Positions 2,215-27,522 of a DNA stretch of 64,000 nucleotides are shown here, one piece after another. Under the pieces are notes generated by a model. That model had not been told where the DNA came from and made no database searches. It saw only the letters and a program-made list of their open reading frames with translations. The first letter of the stretch is position 1; each line of letters opens with the position of its first letter. This DNA comes from a virus, in IMG/VR virus record IMGVR_UViG_3300002835_000111, positions 1-64,000 of that record; one strand, 5' to 3'. The position numbers and the translations under genes were made by a program.

Positions 2215-2848
2215 TGTCTCTAATTATTTTACATGGATTACCGTAAGCAATTACATTATCGGGAATGTCTTTTGTTACAACTGAACCTGCACCTATTATG
2301 GAATTCTTTCCTATCTTTATCCCGTCAATTATATTTGCACCTATTCCTATTGTTGTTCCTTCTCCTATGGTTACGTTTCCCGCAATGTTAACTCCTGGGT
2401 TGATAGAACAATAGTCACCGACGTTTGTATGATGACCTATGGAAACATGTCTGTTGATTGATACAAAGTCTCCTATGGTCGTGTGTGCGGCAATTGATAC
2501 CTTTGAATTGATTAGAAGTCCACGACCAAGTTTACTCGTGTAAGAGATATCCAAACCATCATGAATTATATTCATGAATTTGTTCTTATCAGGATTTAAT
2601 GTCTCCACGATTTTTATCTTATGTGATGGTTGATATACACCAAGAGCCATCAAGTCGTAGTCATCCATATTGACCGTGTTAAACATTTCAATATTAAATC
2701 TATCATGTTCAAATGTGTTTAGGATTGGTAGATTCAAATTATTGTATACGTGAATATCAGGTTGTCTTGTATTATGTGAATACAAGTTATCCAATATCAT
2801 CGTAATGTTATTATCCCCCTTACCTAATATTAATAATTTTGTTGCCAT
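2195..2848 (-). CDS. Left-handed beta-helix acyltransferase (NeuD/PglD type)
   Basis: 217 residues. An N-terminal alpha/beta segment with LLILGKGDNN resembles the nucleotide-sugar binding half of PglD and NeuD. From about residue 105 there are hexapeptide repeats ([I/V]-G-x-x) typical of acetyl-CoA-dependent sugar O- or N-acetyltransferases, with a likely catalytic His in SIGHHTNVGDYC. The C-terminal IGAGSVVTKDIPDNVIAYGN is the classic end of the family. It overlaps both neighbours by about 20-30 bases, so it is co-translated with them. Confidence 0.85.
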   Translation of the reverse strand: MATKLLILGKGDNNITMILDNLYSHNTRQPDIHVYNNLNLPILNTFEHDRFNIEMFNTVNMDDYDLMALGVYQPSHKIKIVETLNPDKNKFMNIIHDGLDISYTSKLGRGLLINSKVSIAAHTTIGDFVSINRHVSIGHHTNVGDYCSINPGVNIAGNVTIGEGTTIGIGANIIDGIKIGKNSIIGAGSVVTKDIPDNVIAYGNPCKIIRDNETQSI

Positions 2849-3647
2849 ATCCTTTTTCTCTTAATTCTTTTGATGTATAGTGTTTCATGTCCAACTCATT
2901 CATTATCCTATGGGCACGTTTTAATAACTCCATATTTGTTGTCTTTACCTTATCTTTGTAATATAGATTATCTTCCAACCCGATTCTAATTCCATCAAAA
3001 TCTAATAACCCGTATGTTGTACTCTTTAGTTGTTGTGAACCTATTCCACCCAAACAGGTAAATGAGTTTGATGGTAGATTGTTTTTGATTGTTGATAAGG
3101 TACCCAAATCACATTGACCATTGTACATGTTTCCTAATATGATATTGATGTGATATGGTGGCTGTAATATGTTCTTTGAAATAATGTAATTTGTATAGTT
3201 TAACATCCCTGTATCAAAACATTCTATCTCAGGTTGAACCCCATACTTATCCATCTCATTGATTAAAGATAATATCATCTCAGGTTGATTGATTGATGTC
3301 CCTGATGGAAAGTTTAATGATGACATTGTTAGTGAACCCATGTCAGGATATAATTGTAATACCTCCGACCTTTTTTCTAACTCAGGAAAGTTTCTTCCCG
3401 TTAATGATACACAAATTAATAGTTCAGGACAATATATTTTTATCCCCTCTATTATCCTTTGATATACTTCTTTCTTGTAGGTATTCTCTAATGTAACCTC
3501 ATCTCTTGCATGTAAATGAACAATAGATATTCCAATCTCGTTTGCCTCATAAACTGAATCAATTATTTCATTTGGTGTTAATGGTGCAAATGAATTACTC
3601 CTTGTGGTTTGAGTTCCTGTTGGTGTGAAATTTATTATTTTTTTCAT
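2820..3647 (-). CDS. BKACE-family (DUF849) beta-keto acid cleavage enzyme
   Basis: 275 residues, a full-length TIM-barrel. VHLHARD at residues 43-49 is the signature metal-binding HxH, and GIRIGLEDN near residue 222 carries the conserved C-terminal Glu. Family members use Zn and acetyl-CoA to split beta-keto acids into a CoA ester and acetoacetate. Its presence in a phage glycan cassette is unusual: it may make an acyl or amino precursor for the acetyltransferase and aminotransferase downstream. The start overlaps the stop of the upstream glycosyltransferase-like gene by 4 bases (ATGA type). Confidence 0.85.
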   Translation of the reverse strand: MKKIINFTPTGTQTTRSNSFAPLTPNEIIDSVYEANEIGISIVHLHARDEVTLENTYKKEVYQRIIEGIKIYCPELLICVSLTGRNFPELEKRSEVLQLYPDMGSLTMSSLNFPSGTSINQPEMILSLINEMDKYGVQPEIECFDTGMLNYTNYIISKNILQPPYHINIILGNMYNGQCDLGTLSTIKNNLPSNSFTCLGGIGSQQLKSTTYGLLDFDGIRIGLEDNLYYKDKVKTTNMELLKRAHRIMNELDMKHYTSKELREKGYGNKIINIR

Positions 3648-4597
3648 TCAATATCCATTATGTATGCCTTTATTTTAAAAACCTCTCTAAACTTATCATC
3701 AAATGTTTTTTCATATATAACTTTTTTTAAATTGTCTATTCTTACATGATTTATATTGTCAAAAACTCCCAAACTTCTTATATGCCAATGATTTGGTTTA
3801 ACCGAAATATTAATTACTTTTTCTTTATTAACAATAACAACTATATTTTCTTCATTGTCATTTATTGAATTATAAAAAATGTTTAAGGTTAAATCAATTG
3901 GGTTGTAATATAATGTGTAATGTAAATTTCTATTGTAAAATGCCTTACCTCTTTTGAATTTATCCTCAGATGGTTCATTTTGAAATAATACCTTTCCGTT
4001 ATTCATGAAAAGATTTTTTGTAAAGAATTCTAATTGTTTTGGCTCAAGTACTTTCATTTCATTTTCAATGAAATCTCTATTATAGTTTTTAAAATGTTCA
4101 GGTAATGAACTTACTTTAAAAGACTTAAAGGAACCAAAAAGAAATCCATCTTTTTTACCATTATCTGTACATATAACAGAATCGTATTCTTTAAGATAAT
4201 CACTATTTTTATCAATCAAAGTTTTATCTAATAACTCACAATCATATTCAATATGATGAATATTGTCGTATCCAAAATTTATGGCAATTTGACTTACCAT
4301 TGAAAACATTCTATAAATTGCAAATCCATAAAATGTTTTACTAAAAAATCTTGATTGTATTTTTTGATTATTAAAACTGAAATGATTATGCCCTAATAAA
4401 TTATAATCATCGGACGTATCATTTAGATGGTCATAAAGATAATATTGACATTTTTTTTGAATATGTATTGGTATATGTGAATGAGATATTAATGCAATAT
4501 CTTTACCACATTGTAAAACCGAATCAACACATTTTTCCAAAACTCTTTCTTGTTCTTCTGTTGGACAAAAAGCTGTAATAAAAATTAAATCTTTCAT
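3644..4597 (-). CDS. Glycosyltransferase-like protein
   Basis: 317 residues, first gene of the glycan cassette. The N-terminus KDLIFITAFCPTEEQ and the segment NIHHIEYDCELLD near residue 117 resemble GT-A-fold enzymes, in which an acidic D-x-D or E-x-D motif binds the nucleotide sugar. The last third is beta-rich and may be an accessory domain. Assignment rests on fold-like features and context; donor and acceptor are unknown. Confidence 0.55.
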   Translation of the reverse strand: MKDLIFITAFCPTEEQERVLEKCVDSVLQCGKDIALISHSHIPIHIQKKCQYYLYDHLNDTSDDYNLLGHNHFSFNNQKIQSRFFSKTFYGFAIYRMFSMVSQIAINFGYDNIHHIEYDCELLDKTLIDKNSDYLKEYDSVICTDNGKKDGFLFGSFKSFKVSSLPEHFKNYNRDFIENEMKVLEPKQLEFFTKNLFMNNGKVLFQNEPSEDKFKRGKAFYNRNLHYTLYYNPIDLTLNIFYNSINDNEENIVVIVNKEKVINISVKPNHWHIRSLGVFDNINHVRIDNLKKVIYEKTFDDKFREVFKIKAYIMDIE

Positions 4598-19441: not shown

Positions 19442-19472
19442 AAAAAAACCCCACCTGAATTAACAGATGAGG
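19442..19472 (-). terminator. Rho-independent terminator of the large RNA
   Basis: Minus-strand stem CCTCATCTG/CAGGTGGGG (two G-U pairs), six-base loop, then seven Ts. Confidence 0.85.
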
Positions 19473-20437
19473 TTTAGTGGCTAAAAAGGTTGAGATTACA
19501 CCTATTATTGAGAATCTTTAAAAGGATTATTAGTTCCCTTTATATCCACATCCTTTTGGGATGTAATCCTCATCGCCGATTGGTTAGACCAATCACTCCT
19601 AAAGGTTTTAACTACTCTTTCATTACTCAACTCTCTTTAACCTTGCGAGCTAACTCAGGGTTCGACCCCTTAGAGGTTTTTGGTAAAAATACACATCAAC
19701 TTGCAGTCTCAGTGTGCCATGGACAACCCATGACTATGTAGGCGACTTTCATCAAAACCTGATGGACACTTGTGCTTGATATTTTAATTAATTATTACAT
19801 TAACATATGTATATTAAGGTTTGTGTCGTGGATGATAGAAGTAGTGGTCCACCGTAAGCTCCGTTATCTTTTGAACAACAGAATACTAAACTACTCCCTG
19901 AGATGTCCCCACCTCCATATGTCAAGTTTACTTCAAACTAAGAACCTTGGTAGATTCAAAGTAGGGATAGTAACAGCACCACCTGTACTCTATCATACCT
20001 TTCGGTTTTAAGTCCACTTTCGTATTGGAATTCGCAATGATGAGATTGGAGGTCTCACTTTTTACAATATCCCTACGAGTTATTCTTATTGATGTTCCCA
20101 TCTCAACCAAACGACCCACATCGCTTGGTCATCTCAACTCTTCATCTACAGTGTTACCCTCGATTACTAAAGCAAAGATGATATCTCGCCTGTATACTCG
20201 AGCTCCGTTACCGAAGCCGCAATCCTGTTAACACAACAGGTTCACTTTATCCCACTTTCATGGTTTATTTAACGACCATATACGGCCGATTACCTTTATC
20301 AGATTAAATGTCTCATAATCAACCCGAAGGTCTCATAATAAACTACTGAACGGATAAATATTTTATATTCAAAGAACGAATTTCAATTTTAGAAAAGGAA
20401 ACCATAGTTTTACAACAACGTCAACCTTTTCGTGATT
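19442..20437 (-). ncRNA. Large structured non-coding RNA (about 1 kb), GOLLD/ROOL-like in context
   Basis: No convincing protein frame, more GC-rich than its flanks, with a strong promoter immediately upstream (20444-20475) and a terminator at its end. Many helices are visible: 20225-20241 (6 bp), 20106-20129 (9 bp with one G-U), a long-range 9-bp pairing of 20069-20077 with 19962-19970 enclosing a 5-bp hairpin and a GAAA-capped hairpin, 19750-19764 (5 bp), 19718-19732 (5 bp), a nested AACCT/AGGTT and GGG/CCC arm around 19658-19668, 19578-19594 (7 bp) and 19548-19564 (6 bp). Giant phage RNAs GOLLD and ROOL also sit beside tRNA genes. I do not recognise its sequence as either. Confidence 0.75.
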
Positions 20438-20443
20438 GTTTCA

Positions 20444-20475
20444 CAAAGGTAAGATAAACTTTTCAATTTATCAAA
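20444..20475 (-). promoter_or_regulatory. Promoter P2 for the large RNA
   Basis: TTTG, 20 bases, TACCTTTG on the minus strand, in a ~60-base block repeated at 20559-20590. Expected RNA start is a few bases below 20444. Confidence 0.85.
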
Positions 20476-20558
20476 CTTTTTGTGAAAGTTTTTTTAACAA
20501 CCTAACTCTATTAATTACCGATAGTGAGATTTGAATTCGGTGATTGTTAAATGTTTCA

Positions 20559-20590
20559 CAAAGGTAAGATAAACTTTTTAATTTGTCAAA
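20559..20590 (-). promoter_or_regulatory. Promoter P1, just downstream of the tRNA
   Basis: TTTG, 20 bases, TACCTTTG on the minus strand, nearly the same sequence as P2. A ~100-base transcript lead would run from here into P2 and the large RNA. The stretch between (20476-20558) contains an ACCGA/TCGGT pair and may be part of a longer RNA form. Confidence 0.85.
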
Positions 20591-20612
20591 CTTTTTGTGA
20601 AGTTTTTTTTTG

Positions 20613-20685
<73 letters not shown>

Positions 20686-20723
20686 ATATATCTTAAGTAA
20701 AAGAACTTTCAATTTAAGTCCCA

Positions 20724-20755
20724 CAAAGTTAAAACTATTTTTTCAAATAATCAAA
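20724..20755 (-). promoter_or_regulatory. Promoter P4, upstream of the tRNA
   Basis: TTTG, 20 bases, TAACTTTG on the minus strand. Expected start about 35 bases before the tRNA 5' end. Confidence 0.85.
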
Positions 20756-20799
20756 CATATGTGGGACTTTTTTGTGAGACTCTCATCTCATTTGTTTCA

Positions 20800-20831
20800 C
20801 AAAATTAAAACAAAATTCTCATTTTGTCAAA
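20800..20831 (-). promoter_or_regulatory. Promoter P3, second promoter upstream of the tRNA
   Basis: TTTG, 20 bases, TAATTTTG on the minus strand. A palindromic TGAGA/TCTCA element lies between P3 and P4. Confidence 0.8.
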
Positions 20832-20917
20832 TTTTATTTTACGAAACTATATTTGTGGGGATGTTTGTCCTTTCGGACTTGAGATTATAAATATAGTCTA
20901 CAATATCCAAAAGTCAA

Positions 20918-22674: not shown

Positions 22675-25600
22675 TTATCTTAATAATGTAACCGAACCGC
22701 TGTATGTGTATTTTTTACCGTTAAAACTGGTTGCATTTACTTGGTAAATATATGCATCTTGTTGACAATCCTGTCCTTTATTAAAGTCTCTTCCATTCCA
22801 CCCTTCCTCAGGATTGTACGTTTTATCTGTCATGTATGATTCATAAACCTTTTGACCCCAACGATTAAATACAAATATTTCTAATGTTTCAAATCCTGTA
22901 GCACTTACTTTGAAAGTCCTATTACATCCAAATCCACATTCTATCGTACTTCCCCCTTTTCCATCAACGTTAATCGGACGGAATACATTTGGAATAAACA
23001 CCGTGATATCTGGCTCAATACGAACACATTCTAGTGTAGAATCATAACAACCGTTAGGACTAATCGCAGTTAGTTTTATACACTGTAAACCAGTATCTGC
23101 CATAAACTGAACTTGGGTTGGTTCAAAAGTATAATCTACTCTTGGTATACCAGGAGTTAGTGGTGGAAAATACCAAATATATTTTAAGTTTGAATTGTCG
23201 GATATATTTGATTGATTAAAGAAATCAAAATTTGGTTTAGCAATTGTTGTACTTTTTGGATCCGTGGTAAATGACGCAACTGGTGTTGGCCAAGCAGTTA
23301 ATGTAGCGTCAGTAGTATCTTTACAACCATCAGCCTCAACAAACAAATATATCCTGTGATTTCCTGATTTAGTAAATGTTTGTGATAAAACAGTTTGATT
23401 AAATGGATTTGAGTTAAGTGGTGTACTATTAAAATCAGTAACATCCATATACCACTTATAAGTACTACCCACAATACTTGGAACCGCAGTATAAGTTGAA
23501 TTTAACACCAACCCATATCTCTCATCAACACAACCTCTATCAGGTGATATAGTAAAATCAGCAACTGGTTTTGGTTTAATCGTATAAGTTATAGAATCAC
23601 TTACAGAACCACAAATATCGGGATCGGTAGTTAAATCTATAGTTGTAACTTTAAAAGTAACTTTTCCACGAATAATGTCGAATGGTGTTGCGGTATAGTT
23701 AATTCCATTTATACCATTATCAATAATATTCCCGTTACCATCAGGTGTTACCCAATTCCAAGTATATGGCGAACTTGGTATTGTTTTAAACCCCACATTA
23801 AAAATGGCATCATAAGAACAAACCGATCCATCATCTACAATATCTACCTGAGGTGGACTTTGTATTCTAATATTTATTGAATCTTTGTTATCACATCCCG
23901 TTCCAGGATCCTTATAATAATATTTAATATTATAAACCCCATCAGGAACATTATTGATTGTAAATTTACCATTAGTTACATCAAATGCTGTGGTCGGTAA
24001 AGTTGGAAAACTTTTCATCTCACCATCAACACTTGAAATGTTATTTGGATTCATAAAGAAGAATACACTACCACGAGTTTTACAAATTGAACTATCACTA
24101 ACAATATTATAATCGATATCCACAACAGGATTCTCATTAACTTGAATTGTAGTTGTATCCGCAACCCTACAAGTTGTTGATGTGTCAGCATATACTAATC
24201 TGTACTGTCTGGTGAAATTTTCTAATATAGGACTTGATGGGTTGAAATTTCTACCATTAGTTATTGAAGTCCTATACATCTGATCAGGTGATCCAATATA
24301 CCAATAACTACTTAGTGGGTTAATAGATGTTGTACTTCTACCTAACATATGTTGATCTATATCGACAATAGTACCTGACCTACATAAAGATGGTGCAATA
24401 CCTGTTTCTAACTTCGGAGTTTTTATTACTGAAAATACCAAAGTATCGGTAGCTAAACAACCTCCTATTGGTGATGGTGCGAAAAAACCACTAACCGCAG
24501 GTGTAAATAACACACTATTATTTAATGGGAATGTAGCAGTAAATTTATAAGTTATAATATTTGTGTCAGGTAAAGTTAATACGTCAACACCTTGTGGATT
24601 AAATGCATAATAATTAATCGCGGGATTTGGTTTATTAATACCACGACCAAACCACTCTTCATTAGTTGCTAACGCACCTCCATTTGGAGAATATAGTTGG
24701 GAACCTGGGTTAATGTTAAACACACTAGCAAAATCACAAAAGTTTCTACTTGATCCTGCGTTAATTAATGGTACAGGAAAGACAGAGATTACGATTGAAT
24801 CACTTATTCTACATCCATCAACATCGTTTACGTTAAGACGAATAATATTTCCTCTTACAGGTGTTGGTGGTACTGGTGGTAAATTAATTAAATTAGATAT
24901 TATAACTTGATTACCATTAATCGCATTTGGGTTTGATGGATAATTCCATACCGATGTTATCAATCCAGGTTTGTTTGTAGAAGTAATATTTGGTAGTAAT
25001 ACTATGTTAGTATTTCTACACAAAGACATATTATCAGGTCTATTAATTATTGGTAATGGTTTAACTATTACATCCATAGTATCAACATAAGAACATCCAA
25101 CACCACCATAAGTTAAAAATCCTCTCACTTGATAACTGGTTGTAATCAATGGTGATACATTTAGAATTGATGTTCTACTTAAAACAACATCAGGGTTTGA
25201 TATTGGAATCGATCTCCATTGAAAACTATCTATGGCTGCGGTCGTACCAACACCAACTATATTTATTGGTGCGTCTTTCTCACAAATAGTTCGATTAGGA
25301 CCAGCACTAACAGGTACTCTTTCATTAATATAAACCATAATAGTATCCAACTGAGAACACCCATTTAAATCCGTTTTTCTTACAATATATTGACCACTAT
25401 CTCTTGGTGTAATTTTTTGTGATACAGTATCAGTCAATACTGGTGATACAGGAATTTTATTCCAACGCCAAATATTAACACTACCATTACTATTACCACC
25501 ATCTATGGTGTCAGTTGCACCAAAACAATAACGAACAGAATTTGGTAACTCTTTAATCGGTAAATTACGAGTAAACACATTTAATAAAGTTGAGTCTTTA

Positions 25601-27522
25601 CAACCATTCAAATCCTGAATAACAACTTTGTAAGAGCTACTAACACCAGGGTTTGTTGGGTTTATTACAAAATTGGAATCAATACCAAAAGTTCTAATAA
25701 TGTTGTTTGAACCCATACCACCACCATATAGAGTATACCGATAAGTACTACCAAAAGGCGTACCATCTCGTCCATTTGCCCTAACTATAACTGAAGTTCC
25801 AAAACAATTAAAAGTATCCCTAATATTTACATCAACAGGAGGTACCACCAAAACAGAGTCCCAAATATTATCGTTAGGACAACCATTGGGTGATGGTGGT
25901 GCAGTTGTTGTTAACTGTAACCTAATTTTATGCCAACCACCTTGTAAAAATCTATGATTGATCACATTAGGTCCAACAAAAGTTTGGTAAGTATTAGAAT
26001 TAGGGCTTGTTTCAATTAAGAATTTAGTATACGAAGGGTTAATAGGAACGACATTTGTTTGAGTATATGAAAAATCATAGAAGCCACAATTTTTGTTGGT
26101 TTTAATGATATTTGCTATAGGAATCCTTCTAACTAAAATACTAAATGATCTTGTAGTACGAGCCGGAATAGGACACGCCCTATCTTTGGCGGTAACAACA
26201 AAATAATAAGGTAAATTACTCGCCATTTCAGGACCAGGTGTCCAACAAAAACGAACACTATCATATTTTGGTCCAATCATAGTTCTTTGAATAGGATTAT
26301 ATGCTTTAACAAATGTAGCACCTTTACTAACTAATAATGTTGGCGCGTTCCAAGTAATGTCTGTAGTATCGGTAACTGCGGTATTATCCCAAGCAGAAAT
26401 CATAAAACATAATTGTTGTCCAGCACAAACAGAATAACTAAAGTTTGGTTGTGGTGAGGTTAAAACTCCATCATTGGTCCATGTTCGTAAAACAGGTGGG
26501 TTATTTTCAGGACAAATCCTACTATAAAACTGAATGTCCCTTCGAGTTACACCCATTAAGGTAGGTACTCCTCCTACCATTTTCCATTGTCGAACCTCTA
26601 TAATTAAATTAGCAACAAAGGTTCCCATCGGTCTAAACCGTAGATCTCCAGTTACAGGATCTATGCTGATACCAATAGGAGGAACCGCAGGTGGTGTTTG
26701 AATTGGCGCACCTAAATAAGGTAGTGGTACATTGGCACTGTATGGTGAAAGATATGGCGCCGTAACACCAGGTCCTGTAAGTGATTGCCCAAAAGAATAA
26801 CTTAAAGAATCACCATCAGGGTCAATAGCTCCTAAATTGTAAGTAAAATCTTGTCCCGCACAAGTAACCGCAACAGGGTCATTTGTAAATGTTGGAGAAG
26901 AATTACAAGGTGTTACACACCTATTAATTGTACCTTGAGTATAAAAATTTAAAGCGCCAGGATTTACTAAAGTAGTTATAGCATCATTTCTACAACAGAT
27001 ACTATAACCTATATTGATTAAACAACAACTAGCCGGAATAGATGCTAAACTAATATTCCCTTCAAATGTATACACCTCAATACCAGGAACAAAAGTACCA
27101 GGTGTTCTAGTCCCACAATTAGTACAAATGGATTTTTCTCCTGAACATAGTTGTACAACATCAAAACCACTAACACCTGTAACCACATTTATATTTTGGG
27201 TTCCAAAATTAATTCCAGCACAAGGGCTTGTTGGTAAACCTGAACCTGTAGGTGCAGATCCACCTGTCAATATAATTGGAATATTACAAGAAGGACTTAA
27301 ACTTGTGGGACAATTGGCACAGAGTTGAACACCCTGACAATCTCTATATATCTTAAACTGAACACGATAAACACCTGGTGTGGTTGTACAGACATAAGAT
27401 ATGTCGGAACCAACAACGTGAGAAGCATTTACTTCTTTTTGGGTTACGCCGATTAATGATAATATTAATACAGATAATAAAAAAATCTTTTTTATAATCT
27501 TACCTAAAACTATTTTTTCCAT
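22675..27522 (-). CDS. Giant secreted surface protein with type IX secretion C-terminal domain
   Basis: 1615 residues. An N-terminal signal helix (IIKKIFLLSVLILSLIGVTQ) is followed by SHVVGSDISYVC and YRVQFKIYRDC, the start typical of Bacteroidota surface proteins. Then come many PKD/Ig-like beta domains with Cys pairs and Pro/Asn/Thr-rich linkers. The last ~90 residues (LEIFVFNRWGQKVYES, GWNGRDFNKGQ, YIYQVNA, GSVTLLR) match the gliding-motility-associated C-terminal domain (CHU_C), a type IX secretion signal. It would be exported by the host's T9SS to the outer surface. Looks host-derived and rare in phages. Not a known tail-fibre type. Confidence 0.85.
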   Translation of the reverse strand: MEKIVLGKIIKKIFLLSVLILSLIGVTQKEVNASHVVGSDISYVCTTTPGVYRVQFKIYRDCQGVQLCANCPTSLSPSCNIPIILTGGSAPTGSGLPTSPCAGINFGTQNINVVTGVSGFDVVQLCSGEKSICTNCGTRTPGTFVPGIEVYTFEGNISLASIPASCCLINIGYSICCRNDAITTLVNPGALNFYTQGTINRCVTPCNSSPTFTNDPVAVTCAGQDFTYNLGAIDPDGDSLSYSFGQSLTGPGVTAPYLSPYSANVPLPYLGAPIQTPPAVPPIGISIDPVTGDLRFRPMGTFVANLIIEVRQWKMVGGVPTLMGVTRRDIQFYSRICPENNPPVLRTWTNDGVLTSPQPNFSYSVCAGQQLCFMISAWDNTAVTDTTDITWNAPTLLVSKGATFVKAYNPIQRTMIGPKYDSVRFCWTPGPEMASNLPYYFVVTAKDRACPIPARTTRSFSILVRRIPIANIIKTNKNCGFYDFSYTQTNVVPINPSYTKFLIETSPNSNTYQTFVGPNVINHRFLQGGWHKIRLQLTTTAPPSPNGCPNDNIWDSVLVVPPVDVNIRDTFNCFGTSVIVRANGRDGTPFGSTYRYTLYGGGMGSNNIIRTFGIDSNFVINPTNPGVSSSYKVVIQDLNGCKDSTLLNVFTRNLPIKELPNSVRYCFGATDTIDGGNSNGSVNIWRWNKIPVSPVLTDTVSQKITPRDSGQYIVRKTDLNGCSQLDTIMVYINERVPVSAGPNRTICEKDAPINIVGVGTTAAIDSFQWRSIPISNPDVVLSRTSILNVSPLITTSYQVRGFLTYGGVGCSYVDTMDVIVKPLPIINRPDNMSLCRNTNIVLLPNITSTNKPGLITSVWNYPSNPNAINGNQVIISNLINLPPVPPTPVRGNIIRLNVNDVDGCRISDSIVISVFPVPLINAGSSRNFCDFASVFNINPGSQLYSPNGGALATNEEWFGRGINKPNPAINYYAFNPQGVDVLTLPDTNIITYKFTATFPLNNSVLFTPAVSGFFAPSPIGGCLATDTLVFSVIKTPKLETGIAPSLCRSGTIVDIDQHMLGRSTTSINPLSSYWYIGSPDQMYRTSITNGRNFNPSSPILENFTRQYRLVYADTSTTCRVADTTTIQVNENPVVDIDYNIVSDSSICKTRGSVFFFMNPNNISSVDGEMKSFPTLPTTAFDVTNGKFTINNVPDGVYNIKYYYKDPGTGCDNKDSINIRIQSPPQVDIVDDGSVCSYDAIFNVGFKTIPSSPYTWNWVTPDGNGNIIDNGINGINYTATPFDIIRGKVTFKVTTIDLTTDPDICGSVSDSITYTIKPKPVADFTISPDRGCVDERYGLVLNSTYTAVPSIVGSTYKWYMDVTDFNSTPLNSNPFNQTVLSQTFTKSGNHRIYLFVEADGCKDTTDATLTAWPTPVASFTTDPKSTTIAKPNFDFFNQSNISDNSNLKYIWYFPPLTPGIPRVDYTFEPTQVQFMADTGLQCIKLTAISPNGCYDSTLECVRIEPDITVFIPNVFRPINVDGKGGSTIECGFGCNRTFKVSATGFETLEIFVFNRWGQKVYESYMTDKTYNPEEGWNGRDFNKGQDCQQDAYIYQVNATSFNGKKYTYSGSVTLLR

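Follow-up and report, generated by a model that had tools for sequence, protein, structure and literature searches.

Introduction

Among natural RNAs, GOLLD is very large, and its structure has been solved. The published GOLLD, described for the env-38 RNA, is a 14-mer RNA cage in which L11a is a GAAA loop and, according to section 7 of the paper, L20 forms a kissing contact with J13/15 between chains (PMC12286853). ROOL is likewise a giant phage RNA encoded near tRNAs and forming an RNA cage (PMC12286853), and tRNAs in some linkers and ribosome pull-downs are mentioned in the same source. The prophage GOLLD of Lactobacillus brevis accumulates in lytic infection and is dispensable, since phage production proceeds without it (PMC7567579). 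A further RNA of similar size is the noncoding RNA of phage ICP1 (about 800 nt). It is more abundant than any other transcript of ICP1, is set beside GOLLD and ROOL by length only, and comes from a phage without tRNAs (PMC7567579). Outside phages, the rRNA (rrn) operons of bacteria begin with a leader in which a promoter and a hairpin precede boxA and a long untranslated RNA; in E. coli the order is boxB-boxA-boxC, boxA being necessary and sufficient for the recruitment of antitermination factors (PMC10250234), and the gamma-proteobacterial boxA consensus is GYTCTTTAANA (PMC5725501).

We analyzed a stretch of 64,000 nucleotides (hereafter the window) of the virus record IMGVR_UViG_3300002835_000111, in which an interval of about 1 kb had been marked as a structured RNA. 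Taken as a whole, this interval is quite probably a GOLLD gene of a Bacteroidota phage, with a two-domain structure, a leader composed of promoter, hairpin and GTTCTTTGA, transcription by rrn-type antitermination and a product that assembles into a cage.

Identity and setting of the RNA

The minus strand of the window matched the Rfam GOLLD model RF02032 at 19487-19898 with 321.2 bits (E 3.5e-91; threshold 150), model positions 1-416 being complete, and from this sequence match the interval is almost certainly a GOLLD RNA. The earlier note had suspected a giant phage RNA of the GOLLD or ROOL kind near a tRNA, either a new member or a new class, and had proposed an Rfam covariance search for both families. 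The match bears out the kind and the membership, and it rules out a new class. No ROOL match was found in the window at the Rfam threshold, which only GOLLD and tRNA reached, and ROOL identity was excluded on this ground. The following elements define the gene and its surroundings:

19446-20437, minus strand: predicted GOLLD transcript of about 990 nt, delimited by promoter, terminator and homology over both halves, with putative ends
19487-19898, minus strand: 3' domain, equivalent to RF02032 positions 1-416 (Rfam match; 35 significant covarying pairs within the predicted structure)
19899-20288, minus strand: 5' domain, outside the Rfam model (RNAalifold helices; 27 significant covarying pairs within the predicted structure)
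20475-20444, minus strand: promoter TTTG-N20-TACCTTTG of Bacteroidota-type pattern, with an A-tract before it and lying within an inverted repeat
19475-19446, minus strand: intrinsic terminator, a 12-bp stem followed by a T run
20612-20685, minus strand: initiator-like tRNA-Met, lying 175 nt before the putative GOLLD start

The Rfam model is limited to the 3' domain, so that the 5' domain and the leader of the interval lie beyond it; the RNA is an additional member of the known GOLLD class, and its leader is the part that appears new. The 79,459-base virus record containing the window has one GOLLD, and its location in a virus record with tRNA-Met upstream corresponds to the phage and tRNA setting typical of GOLLD.

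The promoter places the RNA start near 20437, the same boundary as in the earlier note, and the terminator fold (-16.3 kcal/mol, z -5.1) was equaled by none of 200 shuffles. In the tRNA-Met, C1 and A72 are mismatched and the anticodon stem ends in three G:C pairs (GGG:CCC), both of which are hallmarks of initiator tRNAs. Thus, the Bacteroidota promoter at the head, the rho-independent terminator at the end and the neighboring initiator tRNA that had been described were all recovered. The same holds for base composition, reported as richer in G+C than the flanks: values were 0.37-0.41 in 300-base windows within 19450-20349 versus 0.23-0.35 in those of the adjoining 1 kb or so to the left and right, while single 300-base windows farther from the interval reached up to 0.37.

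Four tandem minus-strand promoter matches were observed (20440-20490, 20554-20610, 20720-20770 and 20790-20840), all of them within inverted repeats; the repeat arms, compared by eye, vary among copies (TTTCACAAA/TTTGTGAAA, AGTCCCACA/TGTGGGACT). The repeat at the first of them (20440-20490) folds with z -4.7, and the dyads inside related promoters vary together modestly, kinship being ignored.

The type IX secretion signal domain CHU_C is a hallmark of Bacteroidota and odd on a phage gene. In the window, a phage protein of 1615 aa (22675-27522, minus strand) carries this domain at its C-terminus (PF13585, 32.1 bits, cut-off 27). From the promoter type and this domain, the host would be a member of Bacteroidota.

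Relatives and conserved structure

A blastn search among phages returned nine records, comprising LR756502 (3'-half match), LR745206 (5'-half match) and seven Acinetobacter phages; the four examined with Rfam were all above the GOLLD threshold. Plasmids gave no match. Viral scans yielded at least 120 stretches with a 5' motif and 41 with a 3' motif, and at least 137 loci had the 3' core. Among 128 loci listed with the 5' motif, 111 had the 3' core and the other 17 end at most 316 bases from the motif, short of the expected start of the core; in loci long enough to judge, the core therefore lay downstream in 111 of 111. Of the two 3' motifs used in the first viral scans, one gave no match and the other gave two loci (L002 and L003), both without an Rfam GOLLD, and a 5' motif with a variable gap had no match. 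A scan of a genome collection with the 5' motif gave two matches, neither being GOLLD at the Rfam threshold, so that no host genome was obtained by that scan.

After removal of partial cores, of loci whose upstream part fell short of 450 bases and of L001, which duplicates the window, at least 126 full-length relatives were available, and 60 were nonredundant once sequences at least 90% alike over 600 bases had been removed. L006 and L007 are not part of the covariation set (58) nor, lacking the 5' landmark, of the leader set (58). Over 1030 bases, L015 and L079 do not differ from the window.

At least one tRNA was present in 29 of the 60 nonredundant loci, on stretches of unequal length. In the locus of a 634-kb phage (L005), two tRNA-Glu-like copies (2650-2755 and 3848-3945) flank tRNA-Met and GOLLD, both carrying about 20 extra nt in the D-loop region, as seen by eye (ARAGORN gave no call). 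In phage DSS3_MAL1 (L190), a tRNA-Arg within the GOLLD match is followed by a tmRNA gene (2070-2533 and 2617-3025), and tmRNA genes were also predicted in two contigs found by the GOLLD 5' motif (L028, 3187-3579; L037, 1791-2187). Another GOLLD-bearing phage contig (L040, 1081-1153) has a tRNA with anticodon CTA, of amber suppressor type.

For the 60 sequences, RNAalifold predicted 42 helix segments across both domains. Standard pairs make up 90% or more in 36 of these, and in 39 one or more pairs have changes on both sides. Covariation was assessed by a custom script modeled on, but distinct from, R-scape, on 58 sequences and 907 columns, against a null of 20 simulated alignments in which substitutions were randomly re-placed on the tree (E cut-off 0.05). 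As the earlier note had anticipated for a structured RNA, covariation was abundant: 75 column pairs were significant, with at least 80% standard pairs in 67 of them, and 62 fell within the predicted structure. Among the 13 outside it, standard pairing is almost constant in eight but not in the other five, which reflect changes of loop type at 19588-19583 and 19665-19647. The neighboring hairpin loops 19670-19658 and 19654-19637 swap type jointly, the group of the window having mostly GTCGA with CGCAA and the remaining relatives CGCAA with GGCA.

Two helices had been singled out previously. The hairpin at 20129-20106 is kept in relatives (94.6% standard pairs, both-side changes at 7 of 10 pairs). 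The 9-bp long-range pairing fared differently: it is absent at 20069-20077/19962-19970, a one-base shift (20076-20068/19969-19961) pairs 9/9 in the window, and among the 60 nonredundant sequences all nine pairs occur in one and at least seven in 15. Moreover, its bases covary significantly elsewhere (20188/20076, 20187/20077, 19993/19967, 19992/19968, 19990/19970, 19962/19937 and 19961/19938). The scarcity of pairing in relatives and these other partners rule it out as a conserved element.

Correspondence with the solved cage

In solved GOLLD, the 5' domains are the caps and the 3' domains the rings of the 14-mer cage, with the variable linker inside, an arrangement that the RNA studied here would share. 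The candidate counterparts are:

20280-20283, minus strand: end of a hairpin stem and its loop, 4 bp possible with 20192-20195 (pseudoknot or loop-strand contact)
20192-20195, minus strand: partner strand of 20280-20283 (covariation and complementarity)
19774-19775, minus strand: strand pairing with loop 19703-19704, candidate for bridge B7 (J13/15 with L20)
19703-19704, minus strand: hairpin loop partner of 19774-19775 (complementarity across relatives)
20000-20003, minus strand: GAAA hairpin loop, candidate L11a (GAAA in 51 of 60 rows)
19781-19829 (approximate), minus strand: variable A/T-rich linker in the 3' domain (unpaired, poorly filled alignment columns)

Positions 20283-20280 and 20195-20192 are complementary in 60 of 60 sequences, by six pair combinations. 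Similarly, 19775-19774 and 19704-19703 are complementary in 58 of 60 by five combinations, with significant covariation of 19774/19704, and this contact is a plausible counterpart of bridge B7 of solved GOLLD. The GAAA loop likewise appears to correspond to L11a, and the linker described in section 7 of PMC12286853 occupies the position of 19781-19829 here. A TCGA palindrome at 19665-19662 is found in the window and in 19 of 58 sequences overall, GCAA standing there in 36, with uncertain loop assignment; the candidate self-kissing bridge B8 consequently does not appear to be general, and cage contacts may differ among relatives.

Compared with env-38 (PMC12286853), by its published description and not by sequence alignment, the RNA of the window shares the whole matched 3' model, separate 5' and 3' domains, the variable linker, the GAAA loop, a covarying candidate for B7 and a tRNA-Met directly upstream; its 5' domain matches the cage cap by position. 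It differs by its presumed Bacteroidota host, by a leader with a hairpin and a boxA-like word, and by the patchy occurrence of the B8 palindrome among relatives. These conserved features fit a 14-mer cage, which the RNA very likely forms.

A boxA-like word in the leader

Upstream of the two domains, the leader carries a short conserved word with a hairpin ahead of it, and varies over much of its remaining length:

20369-20377, minus strand: boxA-like element GTTCTTTGA (leader conservation; same word before Bacteroidota 16S)
20392-20431, minus strand: leader hairpin in boxB-like position, upstream of the box (fold -11.8 kcal/mol, z -2.06, shuffles as good in 6 of 200)
20698-20706, minus strand: boxA-like GTTCTTTTA, placed after a promoter and before tRNA-Met (single case, inexact match)

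The exact form TTCTTTGA was present in 47 of 58 leaders (first-order Markov null: mean 0.76, maximum 4) and the relaxed form TTCTT[TA][GA]A in 57 (null: mean 4.1, maximum 10), kinship being ignored in both comparisons; the single leader lacking the box belongs to a 642-kb phage (L004). Together, GTTCTTTG and TTCTTTGA were the joint commonest 8-mers in the leaders. The promoter pattern had a match in 45 of the 58 nonredundant leaders, always upstream of the box, and none in the other 13; the distance of the box from the putative start had its mode at 22 nt. Of 38 distinct leaders, 33 formed a hairpin with 4 bp or more in the stretch from start to box, versus 14.6 expected from shuffles. This hairpin is variable in sequence, and in 32 of the 38 it reached p<0.05 against mononucleotide shuffles, the window's own value being p = 0.065.

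As a control, TTCTTTGA occurred just downstream of 10 of 253 other promoter-like sites in the same loci (28 for the relaxed form) versus 37 of 64 in GOLLD leaders, kinship again being ignored. Outside the leaders, 499 kb of the same loci contained GTTCTTTGA only 27 times on both strands; of the 20 sense copies, eight precede a tRNA by 17-31 nt, fitting stable-RNA operons.

For comparison with hosts, we sampled 80 genomes from the phylum to which a Bacteroidales MAG belongs; 16S genes were present in 29, 25 of the 30 16S loci were examined and 20 had at least 250 bases upstream. The Bacteroidota boxA was here taken from its position before 16S. In these 20 stretches, TTCTTTGA was found in 10 (null 0.6, maximum 3) and the relaxed box in 14 (null 2.4, maximum 9), the latter being absent from six, and GTTCTTTG was the commonest 8-mer (12 of 20). 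A hairpin before the box was irregular in the host rrn leaders (-5 kcal/mol or lower in 5 of 12). Because the leader word is the commonest word before 16S in the sampled Bacteroidota, it is most likely the host boxA, and judging by this sequence correspondence GTTCTTTGA likely works as an rRNA antitermination signal. The order of elements is that of a bacterial rrn leader (PMC10250234, PMC5725501), and TTCTTTGA/GTTCTTTG, besides matching the word before Bacteroidota 16S, are close to the gamma-proteobacterial GYTCTTTAANA (PMC5725501), with the difference that here the leader drives a phage RNA and its hairpin is boxB-like by position.

Simple searches in five loci of other hosts (two of Acinetobacter, Mycobacterium, Streptococcus and DSS3_MAL1) found no box close to GOLLD, two upstream matches being 1.6 and 2.4 kb away. 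The boxA link is therefore seen here for Bacteroidota-phage GOLLD rather than for GOLLD at large; in other hosts, where tRNA arrays are long, the leader may be situated at a greater distance from GOLLD. Among the matches listed in a literature search, outside which most subscription papers lay, none tied boxA to GOLLD or ROOL; 'boxa' and 'golld' together brought up, among the matches listed, two papers on CAM plants as judged by title only. PMC12286853 makes no mention of 'leader', 'antitermin' or 'Nus'.

Alternative readings

The word could instead be structural, with the RNA still being GOLLD: GTTCTTTGA would then pair with a CTCAAGGAG-like stretch at 19596-19602 in the 3' domain and supply the 5' side of a closing helix. 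RNAalifold does propose such a helix, of 7 bp with 91.9% standard pairs, and six or seven of the seven pairs are possible in 54 of 57 box-bearing sequences. However, no significant covariation involves the box, both sides change at only one of the seven pairs, L004 retains CTTAAGGAG without having the box, and the same word stands before 16S rRNA and tRNAs, where such a partner is not expected, which makes this reading rather unlikely.

It is also improbable that the conserved word is the binding site of a phage regulator, or an RNase site that splits the leader from the mature RNA, again within GOLLD. A position between the variable hairpin and the RNA proper would suit processing, but the identical word precedes host 16S genes and some phage tRNAs.

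A new giant RNA class unrelated to GOLLD, for which there is nothing beyond the failure of the earlier note to match the RNA by eye, has next to no probability against 321 bits across the complete RF02032 model. Equally negligible is the reading as protein-coding or plain intergenic DNA. Although both strands contain ORFs (four in all, of 63-83 aa), these are open in any frame in only 1/59, 5/58, 11/59 and 11/59 relatives, which excludes protein coding and agrees with the previous impression of no convincing protein gene, and strong covariation argues against both.

Significance

At the level of comparative sequence, the GOLLD identity, the conserved two-domain structure and the leader formed by promoter, short hairpin and GTTCTTTGA are established. 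As a mechanism, we propose that GTTCTTTGA, on emerging from RNA polymerase, would bind host NusB-NusE(S10), and that this would lead to an rrn-type antitermination complex with which the long untranslated RNA would be completed without Rho termination; the complex may also aid folding. In this context, we lean towards considering the GOLLD genes of Bacteroidota phages as miniature rRNA operons, arranged as a strong promoter, a boxB-like hairpin, a host boxA and a giant untranslated RNA, and sometimes situated beside tRNAs with their own boxA, which would borrow host antitermination and folding machinery for bulk production of the cage. As to the role of the cage, storage or handling of tRNA, ribosomes or other parts of translation in the lytic phase is a tentative and rather doubtful guess, drawn from the lytic accumulation reported in PMC7567579 and from the ribosome pull-downs and linker tRNAs mentioned in PMC12286853.

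In brief, the large set of Bacteroidota-phage GOLLD sequences is of value as it stands, because covariation backs a 5' domain that the Rfam model, restricted to the 3' half, does not include. If the boxA reading is true, it would explain how a phage RNA of about 1 kb is made untranslated without being stopped by Rho, would link GOLLD-type RNAs with the machinery of rRNA production, and would offer, in one 9-nt element, a simple handle on the role of GOLLD.
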